Assembly: GCA_014762635.1 (NCBI GenBank)
Contig: JABURR010000017.1
Coordinates: 124,001-188,000 of the forward strand
Direction of reading: 5' to 3'
From: Paracoccaceae bacterium
Lineage (GTDB): Bacteria > Pseudomonadota > Alphaproteobacteria > Rhodobacterales > Rhodobacteraceae
Length of the DNA stretch: 64,000 bases
Both the position numbers and the translations under genes were made by a program. A model generated the notes under the pieces. It saw only the letters and a list, made by a program, of their open reading frames with translations. It did no database searches and was not told the DNA's origin. Below are positions 19,073 to 31,448 of this stretch, in pieces (positions within the stretch are counted from its first letter, which is position 1; every line of letters starts with the position of its first letter).

Positions 19073-20175
19073 GCACGGCCCAGGATCAGCGGTTCATGTC
19101 GCTGGCGCTGGCGCTGGCATCGCGCGGTTTGGGGCAGGTCTGGCCAAACCCCGCCGTGGGCTGTGTCATCGTCAAGGACGGGCGTGTATTGGGCCGTGGC
19201 TGGACCCAGGCGGGCGGGCGCCCCCATGCGGAAACCGTGGCTCTTGCGCAAGCGGGAGAGGCGGCGCGCGGGGCGACGGCCTATGTCTCGTTGGAGCCCT
19301 GTGCCCATCATGGACAGACTCCACCTTGCGCCGAGGCGCTTGTCGCCGCTGGCGTAGCCCGGGTGGTGACGGCGCTTCGCGATCCTGACCCCCGGGTGGA
19401 TGGCGGCGGTCATGCCTTGCTCAGGCAATCGGGGATCGAGGTGGTCGAAGGCGTTCTTGAAGCCGAAGCACGGCAGATTCAGAGGGGCTTCCTGTCGCGG
19501 GTCACCAAGGGGCGCCCGATTGTCACCCTGAAGCTTGCCAATAGTTTCGACGGGCGGATCGCCACCGCAACGGGCGAGAGCCAGTGGATCACCGGGCCCG
19601 AGGCCCGGCGCATGGTTCATGCGATGCGCGCGCGGCACGACGCGGTGATGGTCGGCGCTGGCACTGTTCGGGCCGATGACCCTTCGCTGACGGTGCGTGG
19701 ACTCGGGGTGGCTCGGCAGCCCGTGCGCGTGGTGGTTTCACGTCGGCTCGATCTGCCGCTGGATGGACAGTTGGCGCAGACAGCGCGTGAGGTGCCGGTG
19801 TGGATCCTTCAGGGCGAAGACGCCTCGCGTGAACTGGTTGGCGCGTGGAAGGGTCTCGGCGCTCGGATGATTGCCTGCCCCGTGGGGGCCGGACGACAGG
19901 TCGACCCGGCCGCCGCCCTTGCGAAACTGGGAGAAGCCGGGCTGACCCGTGTCTTCTGCGAAGGGGGCGGGGCGCTGGCCGCTTCGTTGCTGACGGCGGG
20001 TTTGGTGGACGAACTGATCGGGTTCACCGCCGGAGTTGCGCTGGGGGCCGAAGGGCAGCCCTCTCTCGGGGCCATGGGGGTCGACCGGCTGGCCGAAGCG
20101 CCGCGCTTCCGCCTGATCGAGACGCGGGCAATCGGCGGAGATGTCATGCACCGCTGGGAGCGGGCGGAAGACTAG
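19069..20175 (+). CDS. ribD: Bifunctional riboflavin deaminase/reductase RibD
   Basis: RibD deaminates and then reduces the pyrimidine product of GTP cyclohydrolase II, the second and third steps of riboflavin synthesis. The 368-residue protein has the zinc deaminase motif (H53-A-E55, C78 and C87 in [11 protein letters not shown]) and a C-terminal NADPH reductase domain from about residue 150. The GTG start overlaps the nrdR stop. The rest of the pathway (ribE, ribBA, ribH) is 16 kb away on the same strand. Its 3' end overlaps the convergent pentapeptide-channel gene by 4 nt. No FMN riboswitch precedes it. Confidence 0.95.
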
Positions 20176-21200
20176 CTGCGCCGCGCGATCGTGTTGGCGA
20201 GGATCGCCAGCAACAAGCCAAGTGTGAAATACCCCACGATCACCTCGCTGATGACGAGGATTTCACCCAGGAGGCTGTCGGCTGTCACGTCTCCGAAGCC
20301 TAGCGTCGTGTAGGTTACGACCGAGTAATAGAACGGCGTGAACCACGTCTGGGCAGAGTTGGAATAATCCATGATCCCGAACCCGTAGACCATGTCTGCC
20401 AGGTAGAGAAATCCGTAAAGCATAGCCAAAACAAAAGCATATGCGGCGACCTTAAGAAGGCTGCGCCCGTGGTCGATCAGGCCCCAGGCTCGGAACAGCA
20501 TCAGGTCGAGCGACCGCACGAAGCCCTCCGGCTTGTCGAGGATCGCCTGGTAGAGCGTGTCGATGTAATCCTGATCGCGCGCGTCACGCACGAAAAGCGC
20601 ATTACCGTAGACCCCGTCCAGCCCGCGCACGCCGTAATAGAGGCCCGTCATGTCGCGCGGGGTGCCGTAGTGCACGTGCATGACATTGGCATCGGAAAGC
20701 TGGGCGAAGTGGAACTTGGCGCCTTCGATATTGGCTCCGGTCAGGGTCGCGCCAGTGAGGTCGGCCTGTGAGAAATCGCAGCCCCGCAGATCGGCGCCTT
20801 CGAACTTGACCCGGGCGAGGTTCGCTCCCCGGAAATCCGCGCCCCGGCAATCGGCGGCCGACAGGTCCGCACCGTTCAGATCGGCCTCCTGCAGGATCGT
20901 GCCTCGCAGATCGGCCTTGTAGAGCGCCGCTCGCGCCATCTTCGCGTGTGTGAGGTCGGCCTCGGACAGGTTGGATTTCTTGAGGTTCGTCGCCACCAGA
21001 ACGCAGCGGAAGAAATCGGACTTGTGCAAATCGAGTTCAGCCAGGTCCCGGTTCGACAGGTCGATCTCGCTGAATTCCTGGTGGGTCAGAGCGTCGGCCG
21101 GAGCCTTGGCGGCAACCGCCTTCCACTCGGCATCACCGGCTATCAGGGCCGCCTTGAAGTCGCTCTTGGGGTGTTCGGGCGCATTCATCCTTGTCGTCAC
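20172..21200 (-). CDS. Pentapeptide-repeat protein fused to a K+-channel-type pore module
   Basis: This is an unusual fusion. Residues about 46-175 form roughly 20 A(D/N)Lxx pentapeptide repeats, which fold as a right-handed square beta-helix. A linker leads to TM1 (about 250-269), a pore loop with the selectivity-filter-like TTLGFGD (298-304) and TM2 (about 312-335), the two-helix ion-channel (Ion_trans_2) plan. The standard K+ filter is T-V-G-Y/F-G; here it is TLGFG. It would sit in the inner membrane with the beta-helix in the cytosol as a possible gating or docking domain. The GTG start overlaps the stop of the receiver gene (GTGA), making it the last gene of the SLOG operon. Confidence 0.85.
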   Translation of the reverse strand: MTTRMNAPEHPKSDFKAALIAGDAEWKAVAAKAPADALTHQEFSEIDLSNRDLAELDLHKSDFFRCVLVATNLKKSNLSEADLTHAKMARAALYKADLRGTILQEADLNGADLSAADCRGADFRGANLARVKFEGADLRGCDFSQADLTGATLTGANIEGAKFHFAQLSDANVMHVHYGTPRDMTGLYYGVRGLDGVYGNALFVRDARDQDYIDTLYQAILDKPEGFVRSLDLMLFRAWGLIDHGRSLLKVAAYAFVLAMLYGFLYLADMVYGFGIMDYSNSAQTWFTPFYYSVVTYTTLGFGDVTADSLLGEILVISEVIVGYFTLGLLLAILANTIARRS

Positions 21201-21565
21201 GCCGCGCCGAGGAAGCGTTCCATCTTTTCCATGAGCCGGGCGAGGTCGACCGGCTTGGTGTCGTAGTCGTCACACCCGGCCTCGCGGGCCTTTGCCTCGT
21301 CGCCCGCCATGGCGTGCGCGGTCAACGCGATGATCGGGATGGCCTTGGTCTCGTCATTGCTTTTCAGGTGGCGGGCGGCATCCCAGCCGTCCATCACCGG
21401 CAGGCTCATGTCCAGAAGGATCAGGTCGGGGCTCACGCTGGCGGCCATGTCCACGCCCTGCTGGCCGTCGATTGCGATCAGCACCTCGAAACCTCGGCGC
21501 TTCAAGCGGCGGGACAACATGTCCCGGTTCATCTCGTTATCTTCTACCAGCAGGATCCGCGCCAT
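21197..21565 (-). CDS. Stand-alone receiver-domain response regulator
   Basis: This is a 122-residue CheY/DivK-like single-domain regulator. Acidic-pocket residues are E8/D9, the phospho-acceptor is D52 (LILLDMSLP) and the conserved lysine is K104 (DTKPVD). There is no output domain, so it must act by protein contact or as a phosphorelay carrier. GGAGAGGGAC supports the start. It lies 66 nt downstream of the HisKA-receiver-DUF4062 gene and overlaps the channel gene by 4 nt. In this operon it is the natural carrier between a kinase and either the HisKA protein or the channel. That wiring is inferred. Confidence 0.9.
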   Translation of the reverse strand: MARILLVEDNEMNRDMLSRRLKRRGFEVLIAIDGQQGVDMAASVSPDLILLDMSLPVMDGWDAARHLKSNDETKAIPIIALTAHAMAGDEAKAREAGCDDYDTKPVDLARLMEKMERFLGAA

Positions 21566-21631: not shown

Positions 21632-23095
21632 TCACCCGGTCTCGACCATTCGCGAGACGAGTTTTCGCAGGTGCATTTCGCTCATGGTTTCGAAATCCTC
21701 CTCGCTGGCGAAGTTGTGGAAGGCCGCCACGTAAGAGCCATCCTCACCCATCAGGAAGCGGTTCACGTAATCCTGCAACCGGTCGATCTGTTCGATACGT
21801 TCGAGCACGGTGGGCTTGTCCTCAAGCGAAATCACCGGCGCGCCTGTCTTGCGATAGAGCAGCATTTCCGGATGCCCGGACTTGCGAAAGCCCGCCAGCG
21901 CATCCTCGAACTCGAACGCCGTGCCGGAATCGTAGATCGAACCGTCCGGGCGCGTGATCGAGGCGGGCAGGGGCGAGCCGATACGCGACCACAGGATGCC
22001 GACATAGATCTGCGTTTCCCGGGGCGGGTGGATCTGGGCCTGGAACGTGTCCGAGGCCAGCAGCGGTTCCTCCTCCCACAGGATCGGCACCAAAAGCGCG
22101 CGGCCCGCGAATTCCTCGTTGAGGCGCGACAGGACCCGTTTCAGGATCTGGCGTTCGGGGATCACGTCGCCGGGGGATGAGATGAAGACCTTGATCTGCC
22201 GCGCGGCGTTCCGGCGGAGGCGCCCCTTCTCCAGGCAGGTATTGATGCGCGCGGTCAGAAGCACCGGGTTGAAGGGCTTGGTGACGTAATCCTCCGCCCC
22301 GTTCAGGATGCATTGCACCATGAGCGCGGTGTCATCCGTGGCCGAGAGCATCAGTACCGGGATCGTGCGCAGCCGTGCGTCGACCTTGATCTCTTGAAGG
22401 GTCTCCAGTCCGGAGCGGCCCGGCATGTTCTGGTCCAGCAGGATCAGGTCGAACCGGCGGCTTACCAACAATTCCAGCGCCTCGTCGCCTGTAGAGACCG
22501 CGGTGGAGCTATAGCCCGACCGCGCCAGTCGTCGGGTCAGTAGTTCGCGGTTTGACGGGTCGTCGTCGACCACGAGAATTTCCCCCCCCGCGCCGACGTC
22601 CGAGCCGATGGTCTCGGGCAAGGTTGCCGCGGGTGCATCGTGCTCGGACTTCGCTGTTTCCTCGGCGGTCGGATCGGTGAGCATCCTCTCCATCGCCTCG
22701 ATCATCTCGATCACGGTGCGCTGCGCCTGGCCGATATGGTCGAGGTCGCGGGCGAGGTCGGCGTTTTCCTGCTCCAGCGCGTCCTCGCGCATGATCTCGG
22801 TGTAGCCCGCGATGTGGTTGAGCTGGAGCCTGAGTTGGAATTTCACCTCGGTAAAGTCGATCTCGTCGGCAGACGCGCGCCCTTCGCCCAGGTGCTGGTC
22901 GATCAGGGCGAGCATCTTCTGGCCGGCCGTGTGGATCGCCTGCAGGTCCGGCCCCACCAGCTTGACGGTTTCGGGTTCCTGTTCCTCTTCGATCAGTTCC
23001 GCGTAGCCGATGATCTGGCCGATGGGCGAGCGCATATCGTGCCGCAGGCTCGAGAGCCGGGATCGGAATGCCGAGGGCGCGCCCGCGTCCGACAT
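21632..23095 (-). CDS. HisKA-receiver-DUF4062 signalling protein lacking a kinase ATPase domain
   Basis: Domain order in 487 residues: a HisKA-like dimerisation helix pair with H19 (LRHDMRSPIGQIIGYAEL); a second, similar helix pair at about 85-140 in which the GY-E motif is kept (HIAGYTEI) but the histidine position is lost; a receiver domain at about 172-295 (D177/D178, phospho-acceptor D221, K273); and a C-terminal DUF4062-type domain from about 301 (IKVFISSPGDV, then a GILWSRIG core and EFEDAL). No HATPase_c motifs (N, G1, G2) exist, so H19 can only be phosphorylated from elsewhere. The start is 3 nt after the SLOG gene stop. DUF4062 is found in STAND-NTPase and conflict-type proteins. Confidence 0.82.
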   Translation of the reverse strand: MSDAGAPSAFRSRLSSLRHDMRSPIGQIIGYAELIEEEQEPETVKLVGPDLQAIHTAGQKMLALIDQHLGEGRASADEIDFTEVKFQLRLQLNHIAGYTEIMREDALEQENADLARDLDHIGQAQRTVIEMIEAMERMLTDPTAEETAKSEHDAPAATLPETIGSDVGAGGEILVVDDDPSNRELLTRRLARSGYSSTAVSTGDEALELLVSRRFDLILLDQNMPGRSGLETLQEIKVDARLRTIPVLMLSATDDTALMVQCILNGAEDYVTKPFNPVLLTARINTCLEKGRLRRNAARQIKVFISSPGDVIPERQILKRVLSRLNEEFAGRALLVPILWEEEPLLASDTFQAQIHPPRETQIYVGILWSRIGSPLPASITRPDGSIYDSGTAFEFEDALAGFRKSGHPEMLLYRKTGAPVISLEDKPTVLERIEQIDRLQDYVNRFLMGEDGSYVAAFHNFASEEDFETMSEMHLRKLVSRMVETG

Positions 23096-23098
23096 GGC

Positions 23099-24838
23099 TC
23101 AGCCCGCCGCCGGGGGTTCATGCTCGCGATGGTAACGGTGAACACTCCAGAGGTAGATCTCCACCAGGGCGCGGTCCGCCAGATCGCGGATCATGCCCTG
23201 CTTGGCCTGGGCCGACTGCGCGGCCTGGATTTCCTGCGCGGCAATGGCGAAATACCGGCGCTGGTTGGCGTATTGCCAGAGCAGTTCGCGCGTCGCCATC
23301 TTCCCCTGGTAAAGCTCCCAGATCGCGACCCAAAGCGGCAGCAGGCCCATGAAGAAGACCAGCCAAGTCTTTCCGTCAAATCCGGCGAAATCCATGTAGA
23401 GCAGCGATTTCTTGAAGAAGATGAGGGCAAGCGCCCCCAGAACCGATCCGGCCAGCAGCGCCGTCTTCACGCGTTCGAGCAATTCATGCTGGTGGTGCAG
23501 CGCATGCAGCTTTCGACCGAAATATCCGGCCTGATCCTCGATCCACAGCGCGCGGGTTGCGTCGATCGCGTCCTCGGGCGCCGAGGCGGTCCCGTAGGTC
23601 AGAGGTTCGGCGCAGCGCACGGCGTCCTGCAGCCATTCGAAGCGCTCGAAGTGATCCACGTTGATCAACCCGAGGATCCTGCGCACGCTGTAGCGTTCCC
23701 CAGCCCCTGAAAGCACCAGGAAGAACTGCACCCGGAGCGTCTCGGCATAGGCGCGGTAGGCGAGGTGGCAGCCGAGCCAATGTCTTTGAGCGCTGACCCG
23801 GAACCCGAGGTAACCCAAACCGAACAAGGCCACGTAGATGATCAGAAGGGCCTTGGCCGCCACGAGCTTTGCGTAGACCAGGAAGCTCAGGCCCATCGCC
23901 GCGGCGAAAAGCCCGAAGAGCTTGAACATGAGGTCCGAGTTCTTCTGATTGGCGCTGGCGAGTTGATCGGCGCGGAGGAACTGGCGCTCGATGGCTGTCC
24001 CGTCCGCTGAAACCTGCGCCTTGTCGGCACCGAGACCGTATTCGGGCAAATCGCGCCCCTCGTCAGAGGCGTGGGCGGCGGCGTAGGTTTCAAGCCCCTC
24101 CCACCGGCGTAGCAGGGCTTCGGGCAGTTCCGTATGAGTGCTGTAGCAATCGTAATTCGTGTTCGAGATCAGAATCTTGCAGTCGGCACCAAGATCTTGC
24201 TCCGGGTCCGACACCCGCCGCGCGGGCACCCAGATCACGGCATTTCCGCAGTTGTCCGAGGTTTCGACCTCGGCCGAGACGCTGGCCGGTGCCTCGGCGC
24301 CGCCATTGCCCAGGTAGCTCATCACCACGTCCGAGGTTCCGCCGGTCAGGCCGTTGTCGATCCCGTCCCAGACCGCCATCATCGCGTTCGAGCGCCGAAC
24401 AAGGTAATCACGCAGAAGCGCGTATTGCGCGTCGCGATTTGCCTGGCTCTCCATGTCCGCCGGGCCGCGCCCCTCGGCAAGCGGAAGTTCATGAACCGTC
24501 ACGCGTGGATCGTCATGAAGGGTTTGGAACCGCTCCAGTGCCTCTCCCTTGAAATCCGCCTCGTAGCAGGGCTTGGGCATCGGCAGCACGGCACGCACCC
24601 GCAGCCCGAGGTCCAGCGCGACTTCGGTGGCAAGCTGATCGGCCCCTTCGGCAAGGCCGGTGATCACCGTGACAGGGAGGTCGGAAAACCGGTCGCGGAT
24701 CAGGGATAGCCCGTCGCGGAGACGACCGCACACCGCCTCGAGATCGGCCTGGGCGATGTCGCGGTGACCGGTCACACCGATCACGAATTCCAGCGCCACG
24801 CTGGCGCCCTCGGCACCCGTTTCGGTGTTTCCGGTCAT
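23099..24838 (-). CDS. SLOG-domain protein with four C-terminal membrane helices (SLATT-like)
   Basis: I start at the ATG at 24838, which has AGGGAGG about 4 nt upstream, giving 579 residues. The N-terminal domain is of the SLOG (DprA/LOG-like Rossmann) type: GVTGHRD at 21-27, GLAEGADQLA at 61-70, AVWDG at 155-159 and GLTGGTSDVV at 163-172, the family's nucleotide-ligand loops. After a polar linker come membrane segments at about 305-323, 328-345, 457-476 and 491-509. The end is a helical RRYFAIAAQEIQAAQ tail that recalls SLATT proteins. SLOG and SLATT domains were proposed by comparative genomics as sensor and membrane effector of nucleotide-based conflict systems. It heads the operon, divergent from the ferritin-like gene. 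Confidence 0.8.
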   Translation of the reverse strand: MTGNTETGAEGASVALEFVIGVTGHRDIAQADLEAVCGRLRDGLSLIRDRFSDLPVTVITGLAEGADQLATEVALDLGLRVRAVLPMPKPCYEADFKGEALERFQTLHDDPRVTVHELPLAEGRGPADMESQANRDAQYALLRDYLVRRSNAMMAVWDGIDNGLTGGTSDVVMSYLGNGGAEAPASVSAEVETSDNCGNAVIWVPARRVSDPEQDLGADCKILISNTNYDCYSTHTELPEALLRRWEGLETYAAAHASDEGRDLPEYGLGADKAQVSADGTAIERQFLRADQLASANQKNSDLMFKLFGLFAAAMGLSFLVYAKLVAAKALLIIYVALFGLGYLGFRVSAQRHWLGCHLAYRAYAETLRVQFFLVLSGAGERYSVRRILGLINVDHFERFEWLQDAVRCAEPLTYGTASAPEDAIDATRALWIEDQAGYFGRKLHALHHQHELLERVKTALLAGSVLGALALIFFKKSLLYMDFAGFDGKTWLVFFMGLLPLWVAIWELYQGKMATRELLWQYANQRRYFAIAAQEIQAAQSAQAKQGMIRDLADRALVEIYLWSVHRYHREHEPPAAG

Positions 24839-24942
24839 TTGGCCTCCCTCGTGCGGGGCGTCATGCAGCACCCCTTCCGTGGCCATCATAGGAAGGGGCA
24901 AACACAACGCAAGGATTTGCCACCAGCAATATCGGTGCCCTA

Positions 24943-25030
24943 AGGGCGAGTTTGCGAAATTCTTGAAATTTCCCGAAAGAAATTTCCCCCGTTTGCAGAA
25001 TTCATGTCAGATTACTGAAAAAACGGGGAG
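24943..25030. promoter_or_regulatory. Divergent control region with three GAAAT repeats
   Basis: The roughly 200-nt gap between the SLOG gene and the ferritin-like gene is AT-rich. It holds GAAATTC at 24956-24962 and two self-complementary GAAATTTC octamers at 24965-24972 and 24979-24986 (centres 14 nt apart). These look like half-sites for one regulator serving both directions. A GGGGAG ribosome site (25025-25030) serves the rightward gene. Confidence 0.45.
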
Positions 25031-25035
25031 TGGAC

Positions 25036-26985
25036 ATGGCCGAAGAACCGAAGATCCGGATCAGGGACCGGGAAGAACTTATCTACATGCTGGCCGAGGC
25101 CGCGGCGATCGAGCACAACGTGATGTGCTGCTATCTCTACGGGATATGGAGCCTGAAACGCGGGGAACGGGATGGGCTGACGCCTGAGCAGGCCAAGGTC
25201 GTCCAGTCCTGGAAGGCGCACATGACCCAGGTCGCGGTGGAGGAGATGACCCACCTGACGCTGGTCGGCAACCTTGCGTGTGCCATCGGTGGGGCGCCGC
25301 ATCTGTCGCGCCCGAACTTCCCCATTCCCTTCGGATATCACGCTGCGGCGATCGACCTTGAACTTTTCCAGTTCAGCCATGCGCTGGTGGATCACGCGAT
25401 TTTTCTGGAGCGACCCGAGGGGGTGGAGCTTGAAGACGCCCCCGAATTCGCCCATCCCTCGGACTATCACCGCGAGGTGCAGCGCGGGGCGATCATGGCG
25501 AATGCCCAGGATTATGCCACGATCGGGCATCTTTATCGCGGCATCTTCCACGGGTTCGAGGTTCTGAGCCGCAAGCTGGGCGAGGACGTCTTGTTCTGTG
25601 GCGATGTCGAAGATCAGATCAGCCCAAAGGACGCACCCTTGCCGGGGCTTTGCGTGGTCACCGACCTGGCCAGCGCCCGCGAGGCGATCGAGACCATCGT
25701 GGAGCAGGGGGAGGGCGCCCCGGCCCATAGCGAGGATTCGCATTACCAGGCGTTCCTCGGGGTCAAGCAGCAGCTTGAAGAGATGCAGAAGGCCGACCCG
25801 TCATTCGAACCTGCCTTCCCGGTGGCGCGCAACCCTGTGCCCACCAAGCCTGCCGACCCCGAGAACCGGGTCTGGATCAACGATCCCGAGGCGGCGAAGG
25901 TGCTCGACTTGGGGAACTCGATCTACAACCTGATGCTGCGGTTCCTGTCGCAAAGCTTCGGGCGCGATCCGGGAGAGGCCTCGCACAAGCGGTTGTTCAC
26001 GACGCTGGCGCGTGAATTGATGTCGGTGCTGACGCCGGTGGGAGAACATCTGGCCTCGCTGCCCGCCAGCCCGGATCATCCGGGCGTCAACGCGGGGATC
26101 AGTTTCACCATGATCCGGGATATCGAGCGCCTACCTGCCGGGCCGGGCGAGATGATCTTCCTGTCCGAGCGTTTGGAAGAAATAGCCCGCCACGCCGAAT
26201 ACGTCTTCCCGCCGGGGCATGAGTTGGAAGGCATCGGCGGCGCCCTGCGGGGAATGAGCCGCAAGATCACCCCGCCCGAACGCGCGGCCACGGCGCCCGA
26301 GGCTCCGCCCCCGCCACCCGCGCCGCCGCATCCGACGGACTCGGCCGAGGAAGATATCGGCGTGGCCGACGGCAAGGACATGGTGCTGCATTTCGATACC
26401 AAGCGCTGCATCCACGCGCGATTCTGCGTGTTGGGCGCGCCGGAGGTCTTCCTCGCCAACGTGGAGGGGCCGTGGCTCTTCCCCGACAAGATGCCCATCT
26501 CCGAGCTGCGTGGGGTTTGTCACAACTGCCCCTCGGGAGCCATCACCTATGAGCCCAAGGGTGACATTCCCGCTGAACCCGCGCCGAACGTGAACCTGGT
26601 GAACCTGCGCGAAAACGGGCCCTATGCCTTCCGGGCGCCGCTGGAGATCGATGGCGAGAAGAAAGGGTTCCGCGCCACGCTCTGCCGTTGCGGGGCGTCC
26701 AAGAACAAGCCCTTCTGCGACAATTCTCACCGCGAGATCGGATTCGAGGCGACGGGGGAACCGGAAACCCGGCCGTCGGATGCTCTGGAGGTGCGTAACG
26801 GTCCGCTGGAGATCACGCCTCAGAAGAATGGCCCGCTCGAGATCTCGGGCAACCTCGAGATCTGCTCGGGCACGGGGCGTACCGTGGACCGGGTGCAGAC
26901 CGTGCGGTTCTGCCGCTGCGGCGGATCCAAGACCAAGCCGTTCTGCGACAACACCCATCTGAAGATCGGGTTCAAGTCGGAATAG
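25036..26985 (+). CDS. Ferritin-like / 4Fe-4S / double-CDGSH fusion protein
   Basis: The ATG at 25036 follows GGGGAG by 5 nt (a GTG at 25030 is weaker), giving 649 residues. The first ~385 residues match the ferritin-like domain of the iminophenyl-pyruvate dimer synthase (VioB-type) family, with EHN and EEMTH carboxylate/histidine motifs. A Pro/Ala-rich linker near residue 420 follows. Next is a mono-cluster Fe-S domain (CIHARFC...CHNC near 455-500), then two CDGSH-type 2Fe-2S domains near 540-580 and 610-648, with CRCGASKNKPFCDNSH and CRCGGSKTKPFCDNTH. All cluster ligands are present. It is probably cytosolic and redox or iron responsive. It precedes the PAS kinase by 26 nt, so the two are likely co-transcribed. 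Confidence 0.85.
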   Translation: MAEEPKIRIRDREELIYMLAEAAAIEHNVMCCYLYGIWSLKRGERDGLTPEQAKVVQSWKAHMTQVAVEEMTHLTLVGNLACAIGGAPHLSRPNFPIPFGYHAAAIDLELFQFSHALVDHAIFLERPEGVELEDAPEFAHPSDYHREVQRGAIMANAQDYATIGHLYRGIFHGFEVLSRKLGEDVLFCGDVEDQISPKDAPLPGLCVVTDLASAREAIETIVEQGEGAPAHSEDSHYQAFLGVKQQLEEMQKADPSFEPAFPVARNPVPTKPADPENRVWINDPEAAKVLDLGNSIYNLMLRFLSQSFGRDPGEASHKRLFTTLARELMSVLTPVGEHLASLPASPDHPGVNAGISFTMIRDIERLPAGPGEMIFLSERLEEIARHAEYVFPPGHELEGIGGALRGMSRKITPPERAATAPEAPPPPPAPPHPTDSAEEDIGVADGKDMVLHFDTKRCIHARFCVLGAPEVFLANVEGPWLFPDKMPISELRGVCHNCPSGAITYEPKGDIPAEPAPNVNLVNLRENGPYAFRAPLEIDGEKKGFRATLCRCGASKNKPFCDNSHREIGFEATGEPETRPSDALEVRNGPLEITPQKNGPLEISGNLEICSGTGRTVDRVQTVRFCRCGGSKTKPFCDNTHLKIGFKSE

Positions 26986-27011: not shown

Positions 27012-30000
27012 ATGGCCGCAAAAGGAAAAGCCAAGACCGGGAAGGACGCGGTGGACTCCGAGTCGCTGGTAGCGATCCTCGAGGAATCGCCCTATCCGAT
27101 CCTGCGGATGGGCAAGGACGGCAGCATCATCTACGCGAACGCGGCCTCGCATCGCTACGAAGATGTGCTGGAAGACGGCGGTAGGATGGCTGGTCCCGAG
27201 GTGAAGCGCCACGCGCTGCGGGCCCTGAAAGAGGACGAGAACCTCCGGCTCGATATGCCGTTGGGTGGGATGATCTTCAACGTCATCTTCAATCCGTTTC
27301 GAAAGGGCAGCTACGTCAACGCCTATTTCCGCGATGTGACCAAGGTCAGGGCCGTCGACAAGCGGCTGGCCGACATCGCCAAGTTCCCGGAGGAAAACCC
27401 AAATCCCGTCCTCCGTGTCGAGCCGGGCGGGAAAGTCCATTTGGCCAACCAAGCCTCACGTGGGATCGAGGGGATCCTGACCAAGGGCGACAACCCGAGG
27501 CTGCACCCTAATCTTCGTTCAATCGCATCCGAGGCTGCAGACACGCGCGAGGTTCGCGAGGCCGAGATCGAGGCCGATGGCAAGACGTTCCAGCTTGTCA
27601 TGCGACCGATCGAGGGTGAGACCTACGTCAACATCTACGGGCGTGAGATCACGGCGGAAAAGATCGCCCGGAAAGGGCTCGAAGAAGCCAACGAACGCCT
27701 CGAGCGCCGCGTGGCGGAGCGCACGGCCTCGGTCCGGCTCTTGCAGAACATCGTGCTTGCCTCGAACAGCGCGTCGAGCTTCGAGACGGCTCTGCAGACC
27801 GCCCTGCACGAGATCTGCATGTTCGCAGGCTGGTCGGTCGGTCATGCCTACGTGGTTCAGGGATCGGGTGTCGCGCGCGACCTGCGGCCCACGGGGATCT
27901 GGCATATCGAGGACGGGCAGAATGCCTCGACATTGCGCAAGGCCACCGAGAGCCTGCGTTTCGAGCCGTCCAACGGCCTTCCGGGGCGGGTCCTGAAATC
28001 GGGGCAGGCAGTCTGGATCGAGGAGCTGTCTGGTAGCAAGGAAATGCGGCGCTCGAAATTCGCCCAGGAGGCCGGGCTGAAGTCGGGCATGGCCTTCCCG
28101 ATCCTTCTCAACGAGCAGGTGGCCGGGGTTCTGGAATTCTTTTCCCGGGACACGGCGCCTTCGGATGTGGAGGTGATCAAGACCCTTGGCCACGTCGGAA
28201 GCCTTCTGGGGGCCGTGGCCGAACGCAAGCGGGCCGAGGCTGAACTTGCCCAGACGCAAAAGGATGCCGAGGTCATGCATGGCCGGCTGCTGGATGCGGT
28301 GGAATCCATGGGGCAGGCGATCTGCCTGTTCGACAAGGACGACAAGATCGTTTTGTTCAACAAGCGCTACCGCGACCTGATCCGGGAGTTTACCGATGGC
28401 TACACGCCACGCTTGGGGGATCCTTTCGAGGAAATTCTGAAACACTCGTCTCTGGCACATACGCAGCACAAGACATCGGAAGAGCGCGAGGCCTGGCGCA
28501 GGAGGGTGCTGGAGGCACGGCGCGCCAATCCGGTTGCCATCTCCGAGGACATCACCCCGACTGGGCACTGGCTGCGGTCCGAGGGGTTCACCACCCGGGA
28601 CGGTGGCCGGGTTTCGGTCTTCACCGACATCACCGAGGCCAAGAACCACGAGGAGGAACTGGCAAATCTGGCGAAAGAGGCGGATCGGGCCCACGCCCGC
28701 CTCAAGGACGCGCTCGATGCAATGGCACAGGGCTTCGCGCTCTACGACAAGGACGACCGGTTGATCGCGATCAATTCGCAGGCTCTGGACCGGTTTCGTC
28801 ATGTCTCGGACACCGACCAGGAATTCCAGGTCGGCGAGACCTTCGAGGAATACCTGCGCCGTTCCTCATTGCCCTCCAAGAGCTTTGCCAATGAGGGGGA
28901 ACGGGAGGAATGGATCCAAAAGGTTCTGCGCGACCGCCGCACCAAGAAGCACCGTAGTTCGGTCGACCAGGTTCCGGACGGACGCTGGTTCCGCTCGGAA
29001 GGTTTCGAAACCAGCGAGGGCGGTATCGTCTCGGTCTTTACCGACATCACCGAGTCGAAAAAACACGAAGAGGAACTCGCCAAGTTTGCCCGCGATGCAG
29101 ACCAGGCGCATTCCCGTTTGAAGGATGCGGTTGAGGCTATGGGGCAGGCGTTCTGCCTTTATGACAAGGACGACAAGATTGTCCTGTTCAACAAGCGTTT
29201 CCGTGACCTGATCCGCGAGGGGACCGGTGGCCGCGAGCCGCATGAAGGCGATAGTTTCGAAGACCTCATGCGGCTCTCGTCCAAGATACATCCACATTAC
29301 CACACCGACGAGGAGCGCGAAGCCTGGGTCCAGCGTGTGCTTGCCGCGCGGAAGGCAAACCCGGTTGCCAAGTCCGAAGATATTTCTCCGACAGGGCGGT
29401 GGATGCGGTCCGAGGGGTTCACCACCCAAGACGGGGGGCGCGTCTCGGTATTCACGGACATCACCGAGGAAAAGAAGCACGAGGAAGAACTGGCCGAACT
29501 CGCGCGCGAGGCCGATCTTGCACACTCGCGCCTCACCGACGCGCTGGAAGTCGTGGACCAGTCCTTCGCGCTCTATGATTCCGACGACAGGCTGATCGCG
29601 TGGAACACCAAGGCCCGCGAGATGTTCCAAAAGATGGCTCCCGCCGACGATATGGTCAAGATCGGGGACACGTTCGAGAGCATGATACGGCGCTCGGAGA
29701 ACCCGAACCGGAAGTTCGACAGCGCAGAAGAACGCGAGGCCTGGATCGAGCGTGTCCTGAAGTCCCGCCGGGAGCAGAAGACCCGTCGGTCAGAGGACCT
29801 TCAGGCCGATGGCTCATGGACACGCTCCGAGGGGTTCACCACGAGCGACGGGGGGATCGTCTCGGTCTGGACCGATATCACCGAGGCCAAGAGGCACGAG
29901 GCCGAACTGGACGCGCTGATCAAGGAGCTTGGCATCGCGCGGGACGCGGCGCTGGAGGCCAATGCGGCGAAGTCGCAGTTCCTTGCCAACATGAGCCACG

Positions 30001-31448
30001 AACTGCGCACGCCGCTCAACGCGATCATCGGCTATTCGGAATTGCTGATCGACGACCTGACAGAAGAGGAACTGGGCGATTTCGTCCCGGATATCGAAAA
30101 GATCAGGACGGCTGGCAAGCATCTGCTCGGCTTGATCAATGACATCCTCGACCTGTCCAAGATCGAGGTGGGCAAGGTCGAACTCTATGTCGAGGATATC
30201 GACATTGATGCGCTCTTGTCCGAGGTCGATTCGACCATCGCGCCGATGATGGAGAAGAACTCCAACAAGCTGAAAATCAAGAAGGACAACGGCATCGAGG
30301 CAATACGAAACGATGTCACCAAGCTGCGGCAGAACCTGTACAACCTCTTGTCCAACGCATCGAAGTTCTCGGAAAATGACGAGATTGAACTTCGCGTCTC
30401 GATGTCCGATGCGGGAAAGCTCCTGAAGATCGAGGTTCAGGATCACGGGATCGGAATGTCGCCCGTTCAGGTCGAAAAGGTGTTCGAGCCGTTTACGCAG
30501 GCCGATGCCTCGACCTCGCGCAAATATGGCGGGACCGGACTGGGCCTGACCATCACGCGGGAGTTCTGCCGGATGATGGGGGGGGATCTGGGGGTCCGGA
30601 GCACGGAAGGCAAGGGAACCACCTTTACGATGACGATCTCGGCAGAAGCCGCGGCGCCCGAAGTTGCTGCGGCTCCGCGGCAGTCTCGCGGGGCCGAGAT
30701 TCCGAAGGACGCTCCGAAAGTCCTGATCATCGACGACGACGCCAATGTGCGCGACCTTCTCTCGCGCCACCTGACGGCCGACGGGTTGAACGTGCTGACC
30801 GCGTCGAGCGGCAAGGAGGGGCTGAAGCTGGCCGCCGAGGCGAAGCCCGATGTGATCACCCTCGACGTGATCATGCCGCAGGCCGATGGCTGGTCGGTGC
30901 TCTCGCAGCTCAAGGCCAATCCCGCGACCACGGACATTCCGGTGATCATGGTCACGATCATGGAGGAGAAGAAACTCGGCTTCTCGCTGGGTGCATCGGA
31001 ATACCTGACCAAGCCTGTGCAGCGGGTGGAGCTGATCGAGACGATCCGGCGCCTTGCGCGCGACCCAGCAAGCCATTCGATCCTGATGGTCGAGGACGAC
31101 GCCGACACCCGCGCCGTGCTGCGCCGGTATCTGGAAGCCGAAGGGTTCTCGGCGCGCGAGGCTGAGAATGGCAAGGTCGCGCTGGCAGCGATCCGCGAGG
31201 AGACTCCCTCGCTCATCCTGCTCGACCTGATGATGCCCGAGATGGACGGGTTCGAATTCGTCGAGGTCTATCGCGCAACGCCCGAGTGGCACGAGATCCC
31301 CATCGTCGTGCTGACCGCCAAGATCCTCACCCGCGAGGACAAGGAACGGCTCGAGGGCTGGGTTCAGGGGCTCTACAGTAAGGAAGAATGGGACGTCTCG
31401 CAGATCGTCGCGGATATTCGGCGGAAGTTGTCGGGCGTGAAGCTCTGA
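27012..31448 (+). CDS. Soluble hybrid histidine kinase with six PAS, one GAF and two receiver domains
   Basis: The 1478-residue kinase has no membrane helix. Order: PAS (~18-110), PAS (~118-215), coiled coil, GAF (~240-400), four PAS_7-type repeats of about 139 residues starting near 423, 562, 701 and 839, HisKA with H996 (MSHELRTPLNAIIGY), HATPase (NLLSNASKF, DHGIGMS, GGTGLGLT), receiver 1 (~1235-1350, LDVIMP) and receiver 2 (~1356-1475, LDLMMP). Repeats 1 and 3 share VLFNKR(Y/F)RDLIRE while 2 and 4 differ, so a pair was duplicated. There is no HPt domain, so output must pass to another histidine protein. The HisKA protein encoded at 21632 is an obvious candidate. It follows the ferritin-CDGSH gene by 26 nt. 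Confidence 0.9.
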   Translation: MAAKGKAKTGKDAVDSESLVAILEESPYPILRMGKDGSIIYANAASHRYEDVLEDGGRMAGPEVKRHALRALKEDENLRLDMPLGGMIFNVIFNPFRKGSYVNAYFRDVTKVRAVDKRLADIAKFPEENPNPVLRVEPGGKVHLANQASRGIEGILTKGDNPRLHPNLRSIASEAADTREVREAEIEADGKTFQLVMRPIEGETYVNIYGREITAEKIARKGLEEANERLERRVAERTASVRLLQNIVLASNSASSFETALQTALHEICMFAGWSVGHAYVVQGSGVARDLRPTGIWHIEDGQNASTLRKATESLRFEPSNGLPGRVLKSGQAVWIEELSGSKEMRRSKFAQEAGLKSGMAFPILLNEQVAGVLEFFSRDTAPSDVEVIKTLGHVGSLLGAVAERKRAEAELAQTQKDAEVMHGRLLDAVESMGQAICLFDKDDKIVLFNKRYRDLIREFTDGYTPRLGDPFEEILKHSSLAHTQHKTSEEREAWRRRVLEARRANPVAISEDITPTGHWLRSEGFTTRDGGRVSVFTDITEAKNHEEELANLAKEADRAHARLKDALDAMAQGFALYDKDDRLIAINSQALDRFRHVSDTDQEFQVGETFEEYLRRSSLPSKSFANEGEREEWIQKVLRDRRTKKHRSSVDQVPDGRWFRSEGFETSEGGIVSVFTDITESKKHEEELAKFARDADQAHSRLKDAVEAMGQAFCLYDKDDKIVLFNKRFRDLIREGTGGREPHEGDSFEDLMRLSSKIHPHYHTDEEREAWVQRVLAARKANPVAKSEDISPTGRWMRSEGFTTQDGGRVSVFTDITEEKKHEEELAELAREADLAHSRLTDALEVVDQSFALYDSDDRLIAWNTKAREMFQKMAPADDMVKIGDTFESMIRRSENPNRKFDSAEEREAWIERVLKSRREQKTRRSEDLQADGSWTRSEGFTTSDGGIVSVWTDITEAKRHEAELDALIKELGIARDAALEANAAKSQFLANMSHELRTPLNAIIGYSELLIDDLTEEELGDFVPDIEKIRTAGKHLLGLINDILDLSKIEVGKVELYVEDIDIDALLSEVDSTIAPMMEKNSNKLKIKKDNGIEAIRNDVTKLRQNLYNLLSNASKFSENDEIELRVSMSDAGKLLKIEVQDHGIGMSPVQVEKVFEPFTQADASTSRKYGGTGLGLTITREFCRMMGGDLGVRSTEGKGTTFTMTISAEAAAPEVAAAPRQSRGAEIPKDAPKVLIIDDDANVRDLLSRHLTADGLNVLTASSGKEGLKLAAEAKPDVITLDVIMPQADGWSVLSQLKANPATTDIPVIMVTIMEEKKLGFSLGASEYLTKPVQRVELIETIRRLARDPASHSILMVEDDADTRAVLRRYLEAEGFSAREAENGKVALAAIREETPSLILLDLMMPEMDGFEFVEVYRATPEWHEIPIVVLTAKILTREDKERLEGWVQGLYSKEEWDVSQIVADIRRKLSGVKL

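Follow-up and report, generated by a model that had tools for sequence, protein, structure and literature searches.

The relay proposed here has parallels in SdrG-PhyT-PhyR, Spo0F-Spo0B and CckA-ChpT (PMC5898713, PMC9981736). DUF4062, for its part, is described in a May 2026 preprint as a family of TIR-like NADases that have a catalytic Glu and are at work both in TEP1 and, as Swarozyc, in the defence of bacteria (PMC13174449). Besides, YpsA-like SLOG domains are predicted sensors of molecules of the cyclic ADP-ribose type, and SLATT domains predicted nucleotide-responsive membrane effectors (PMC9503650, PMC7159879). We analysed a window of 64,000 nucleotides from a Paracoccaceae bacterium (contig JABURR010000017.1, positions 124,001 to 188,000), and in it a gene whose product, hereafter HRD, joins two tandem DHp helix pairs, a receiver (REC) and a C-terminal DUF4062. 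We consider it rather probable that, within a multistep His-Asp phosphorelay, HRD takes on both phosphotransfer and output, gating a predicted NAD-cleaving DUF4062 and acting on a membrane effector. This reading draws on what can be seen in the sequences: the architecture of HRD, the invariance of H19, D221 and E395, a conserved neighbourhood, and outputs that are interchangeable among its relatives.

Architecture and conservation of HRD

The gene lies on the minus strand, a point on which the original prediction was silent. Its translation places H19 within LSSLRHDMRSP and D221 within DLILLDQNMPG; Pfam HisKA matches residues 14-68 with 35.6 bits (cutoff 26.9), Response_reg matches residues 173-284 with 100 bits, and the receiver residues D177, D178, D221, S251 and K273 are all present. 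No HATPase match was found in HRD at E<1, nor any classical Hpt (PF01627) or ChpT-type (PF10090) match at this threshold, and HRD did not come up in whole-genome searches with either of the latter models. The PADLOC model PDC-S60 covers residues 300-484 (9e-8). HRD is single-copy in its genome, the remaining genome matches spanning almost only the receiver.

Searches in the same family, the same order and a genome collection yielded 18 orthologs of full length. Those of the Alphaproteobacteria (Rhodobacteraceae and relatives) are 58-67% identical to HRD, and about 45% identity is seen in the four gammaproteobacterial cases (three Colwellia and one metagenome-assembled genome, MAG). These orthologs rule out a one-off fusion or a pseudogene. 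The distribution is nevertheless patchy, with a full HRD in 4 of 296 family genomes, that of the window included. Aligned with the window protein (19 sequences), all of them keep the H box with H19 intact, down to 45% identity, lack the equivalent His in the second helix pair, and retain the acidic residues of the receiver, with D221 invariant. E395 is likewise invariant, and the DUF4062 blocks FISSPGDVIPER, TFQAQIHP and SG..[FY]E[FY]EDA are nearly so. When 12 members were scanned one by one, HisKA and REC were matched in every one, DUF4062 at E<0.01 in nine (best 1.3e-4) and HATPase in none. Thus the intact H box, the complete acidic residues, the lost His of a second HisKA-like pair and the lack of an ATPase domain, all read by the original prediction from the window protein, hold for the family. 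A concealed degenerate ATPase, which that prediction had named among the findings that would overturn it, was looked for in HRD and is ruled out, all segments being assigned apart from a 30-residue linker and none of the 12 scanned members matching HATPase.

Profile comparison by hhalign shows the two helix pairs to be homologous to each other (probability 97.8, E 1e-12). Each can also be aligned with the HisKA domain of the partner kinases, pair 1 with a probability of 99.5 and 36% identity, pair 2 with a probability of 98.4. The AlphaFold2 (AF2) model of HRD shows four long helices at residues 9-38, 41-68, 81-108 and 112-140. When this model was compared with PDB by Foldseek, receiver-domain entries were among the matches listed, which is uninformative for DHp and DUF4062. 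We read the tandem as a putative pseudo-dimer within a single chain, which would serve as HPt and for which one His would be sufficient. The nearness of pair 1 to the kinase HisKA could also mean that the ATPase domain of the kinase phosphorylates H19 directly in a mixed DHp assembly, bypassing the receivers. We regard this as very unlikely: the second helix pair of HRD would itself take the place of the dimer partner, and the kinases that partner DHp-containing proteins carry receivers as intermediates.

The probable DUF4062 output and its putative membrane partner

In HRD, E395 aligns with the catalytic Glu position of STAND-fused DUF4062s and stands at the start of alphaC (helix 394-406 in the AF2 model); the whole domain is 49% identical over 186 residues to the N-terminus of an nSTAND1-WD40 protein (L036). 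We predict that the DUF4062 of HRD is a TIR-like enzyme cleaving NAD by means of E395.

Some observations weigh against this and, more generally, against the relay that we propose. The DUF4062 match (PF13271, residues 302-397) scores 18.7 bits, under the curated cutoff of 24.7; the NADase report is a preprint on other DUF4062 subgroups than that of HRD (PMC13174449); with a pLDDT of 69, a pTM of 0.39 and values under 50 in the active-site loops, the AF2 model is of modest confidence, which makes an intramolecular bundle of the four helices a tentative reading; and Hpt is matched three times in the genome and the ChpT type once, which offers the kinase alternative routes. The low Pfam score would also suit a DUF4062 that is no NADase, being rather a non-enzymatic output for nucleotide binding or oligomerisation, as would the fact that, of the four human DUF4062 proteins assayed, the same preprint names TEP1 as active (PMC13174449). 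This alternative deserves attention and is still, to us, on the unlikely side: the catalytic Glu and the motifs surrounding it are invariant, the remaining outputs found on proteins built like HRD are mostly enzymes, and the family of the membrane partner lies near TIR, SIR2 and DUF4062 genes.

This partner, SLOG-TM, joins a SLOG domain to a transmembrane (TM) part with four hydrophobic peaks in the hydropathy profile. Its model has a pLDDT of 83 and finds YpsA as best fold match in PDB, with DprA and ShosA also matched (Foldseek); TRPM channels also appear among the matches, but with a low probability, and we place no weight on them. The window protein itself has no Pfam match over cutoff; in its homolog L143, DUF4231 scores over its cutoff and SLATT_3 matches weakly. 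Close to distant homologs of SLOG-TM a TIR or DUF4062 gene was found in 6 of 12 loci (L143, L145, L146, L148, L151 and L154), the neighbour genes being picked by position with no random-gene control. Elsewhere in this set a patatin gene lies near L152 and L153, and a TrkA_N-RyR protein (L150:4995-7130) near L150.

Neighbourhood, chassis and proposed relay

The genes for SLOG-TM, HRD, a stand-alone REC and a pentapeptide-repeat ion channel follow one another in one direction with gaps small or absent, and the genes of a ferritin-like protein and of the hybrid kinase are divergent from this operon (Table 1). No TM peak is seen in the hydropathy profile of the kinase. The ferritin-like protein, which is VioB-related, has two CDGSH zinc fingers in addition to a mono-4Fe-4S domain; in several modules its gene lies upstream of that of the kinase.

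Table 1. Coordinates of HRD, its domains and the partner genes in the window
Feature	Position	Strand	Basis
HRD, tandem DHp helix pairs-REC-DUF4062, 487 aa	21632..23095	minus	translation, Pfam, ortholog alignment
First DHp helix pair (residues 9-68); H19 (23039-23041) in an intact H box	22892..23071	minus	Pfam HisKA; kept 19/19; model helices
Second DHp helix pair (residues 81-140), without the His	22676..22855	minus	hhalign to pair 1; model helices
REC of HRD (residues 172-290) with D221 (22433-22435) as phospho-acceptor	22226..22582	minus	Pfam Response_reg, 100 bits
DUF4062/TIR-like domain (residues 298-487); E395 (21911-21913) as predicted catalytic residue	21635..22204	minus	subthreshold Pfam, PADLOC, alignments
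Stand-alone REC, 122 aa, probably an intermediate in the relay	21197..21565	minus	Pfam Response_reg; 70-81% identity between modules
SLOG + 4-TM membrane protein (SLOG-TM); start codon uncertain, conservation from ~24800	23099..24907	minus	fold match, hydropathy, homolog L143
Pentapeptide-repeat ion channel, whose gene closes the operon	20172..21200	minus	Pfam Pentapeptide, Ion_trans_2
Hybrid kinase (PAS/GAF-HisKA-HATPase-REC-REC), soluble and HPt-less, the proposed source of phosphate	27012..31448	plus	Pfam; 16/16 assessable orthologs
Ferritin-like/4Fe-4S/CDGSH protein, upstream of the kinase	25030..26985	plus	Pfam; present in L033, L042, L043, L045, L046

Around the orthologs the same partners recur. 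A hybrid kinase is found within about 10 kb of HRD in 16 of 16 assessable loci (contig ends cut the other two, L039 and L041), SLOG-TM and the stand-alone REC are each near HRD in 17 of the 18, and kinase, REC and HRD are consecutive in four loci (L048-L051). The five partner kinases examined are all HisKA-HATPase-REC-REC without an HPt of their own, and differ in their sensors: PAS/GAF, HAMP, dCache or SBP_bac_3. This recurrence rules out an orphan hub. The phrase "no kinase" by which the original prediction characterised HRD is thus right for the polypeptide and wrong for the locus, and the suggestion that the soluble, HPt-less kinase at 27012 could be its phosphate source is now well supported by gene order. 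Ion channels return in varied form, as the pentapeptide-K type, as Ion_trans in L048 and L051, or, in Shimia, as an MscS channel with a cyclic-nucleotide-binding domain adjoining SLOG-TM and HRD (L047:5307-7262). One module clade has ammonium transporter genes between the lone REC and the kinase (L034:10130-13708, with two of them, and L038:6713-7966); in L034 a PilJ-domain protein is likewise there.

Could the module serve against phages by abortive infection, in the manner of Swarozyc or Thoeris, with the phosphorelay as infection sensor? DUF4062 is reported to act in defence (PMC13174449), the partner is of SLOG/SLATT type and the distribution is patchy, with three family genomes having a full HRD besides that of the window. 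Yet the sensors on the kinases (PAS, GAF, Cache, SBP) are of kinds that respond to metabolites or stress; Amt transporters, ion channels and ferritin-like proteins are among the module neighbours; the window flanks are, judged by eye, nrdR/ribD-like and capsule-export-like genes with no defence island; and no full PADLOC system was matched. We consequently find a defence role improbable. A plasmid search with the DUF4062 domain returned distant matches only (at most 33% identity) and no plasmid link.

HRD is one member of a wider chassis composed of a kinase, a lone REC and a protein with two DHp pairs, a REC and an output X, the latter being a cyclase, GGDEF-EAL, a kinase or DUF4062. Two alphaproteobacterial MAGs (L053, L057) have kinase-REC-[helix pair, DHp, REC, PAS-GGDEF-EAL], and a Sorangium (L054) has REC-[DHp-REC]-kinase, the output domain being absent. 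The hybrid kinase of the latter (L054:10493-14143), read from its open reading frame translation only, has a long permease-like multi-TM N-terminus followed by HisKA-HATPase-REC-REC. A search with the lone REC in 299 genomes of the phylum, 16 neighbourhoods of which were inspected, added tandem-DHp-REC proteins ending in a guanylate cyclase (L185, L191, L194 and L197, domain-scanned, and L200, a close relative of L197) or in PAS-HisKA(-HATPase-REC) (L188, L189, L190). In one further chassis protein of 2630 residues, the frame open to the end of the fetched stretch (L186:8111-16001), a long N-masked region makes the output domain unreadable. The survey also gave REC-X proteins without DHp pairs: L187 (SpoIIE) and L193 (cyclase), both domain-scanned, and L192 and L199, assigned by BLAST only. 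As the same DHp-REC chassis bears clear enzymatic outputs elsewhere, DUF4062 would occupy the output slot.

Pair 1 keeps the His in the DUF4062 and Sorangium forms. In the cyclase, GGDEF-EAL and L186 forms it is pair 2 that does so, with mostly Gln at that site of pair 1, and in the kinase-output forms L188-L190 both pairs keep it. Kinases adjoining DHp-containing chassis proteins carry receivers, and those adjoining DHp-less REC-X proteins are without them in three cases of four (L192, L193, L199; L187 is the exception). The receivers of the kinase thus track the presence of DHp in the output protein—a small correlation—which fits a His-Asp-His-Asp relay with DHp charged from a receiver. On the other hand, the H boxes of the orthologs are of the HDLRTP type, and their Thr position is the one used in HisKA phosphatase activity; together with the DHp-less receiver-output proteins just mentioned, this might indicate that the DHp pairs mainly serve as a phosphatase or dimerisation module for the receiver of HRD, the kinase charging D221 directly and H19 being no HPt relay site. 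The retention of His at one of two sites across the subgroups, and the receivers carried by kinases whose partners have DHp and mostly missing from the others, make us think this unlikely.

In the phosphorelay that we favour, the direction we infer for phosphotransfer starts with autophosphorylation of the 27012-type kinase. The phosphoryl group would then pass through the kinase receivers and/or the stand-alone receiver to H19, the two DHp pairs acting as HPt, and from there to D221 of the receiver of HRD itself, switching DUF4062, which would cleave NAD using E395. As for the nature of the signal, we infer that the NAD product, or the fall of NAD, is probably read by SLOG-TM, which together with the ion channel would affect membrane permeability. 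That an ADP-ribose-type product gates both, closing a complete NAD-derived second-messenger circuit from the sensor kinase through the DHp pseudo-dimer and the TIR-like enzyme, is a more tentative proposal, more doubtful than the relay itself. The original prediction of a phosphotransfer hub with a DUF4062 output thus finds support in comparative genomics: invariant H19 and acidic receiver residues, conserved neighbours, chassis outputs. It had missed the generality of the chassis, the pseudo-dimer look of the DHp pairs, the reported TIR-like NADase nature of DUF4062, and the SLOG-TM and ion-channel genes of the module.

Comparison with known systems

Bacterial NAD enzymes of the TIR superfamily are known mainly as immune executioners triggered by infection sensing. 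A conserved module in which a phosphorelay ends on such an enzyme, filling the output slot that elsewhere belongs to a cyclase or GGDEF-EAL, would join two-component systems to NAD/ADP-ribose signalling; if this is true, NAD-based signalling would be a regulated two-component output, parallel to cAMP and c-di-GMP on the same chassis. The His retained at one of two sites of the tandem, and not at the same one in all subgroups, further suggests that an HPt-like phosphotransferase arose here by a route of its own. In the open-licence PMC literature we found described neither a NAD-enzyme module ending a phosphorelay nor a tandem DHp with one His.

Like the proposed HRD, ChpT, Spo0B and PhyT use a HisKA-type DHp as phosphotransferase between receivers, and they too have a single-domain REC as relay partner (Spo0F, SdrG, and CpdR as acceptor) (PMC9981736, PMC5898713). 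They retain a degenerate ATPase domain, which HRD is without; and ChpT and Spo0B are two-chain dimers, whereas HRD has both DHp pairs in one chain, together with its own REC and output. The receiver-cyclase and receiver-GGDEF-EAL proteins (L053, L057, L185, L191, L194, L197) share with HRD the tandem DHp-REC N-terminus, the lone REC and, where adjacent, the hybrid kinase, but their outputs act on cAMP/cGMP or c-di-GMP and their active His is in pair 2.

On the output side, the nSTAND1-WD40/TEP1-like proteins (L036) share DUF4062, an NTPase and WD40 sensing replacing there the His-Asp phosphorelay. Swarozyc also shares DUF4062 with a predicted catalytic Glu and is reported to be activated by the portal, which its C-terminal auxiliary domain binds (PMC13174449), unlike HRD, which ends with DUF4062 and has no such domain; in the HRD module, besides, DUF4062 is C-terminal to DHp-REC, and a hybrid kinase dedicated to it and a partner in the membrane are encoded alongside. 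Thoeris, with its ThsB TIR and its ThsA SLOG effector, resembles the module in pairing a TIR-superfamily enzyme with a SLOG-domain protein. The PADLOC models of ThsB and ThsA have no match in HRD or SLOG-TM, and, in contrast to Thoeris, the module has no SIR2 or Macro effector, its SLOG domain is fused to four TM segments, and its enzyme would be wired to a phosphorelay.
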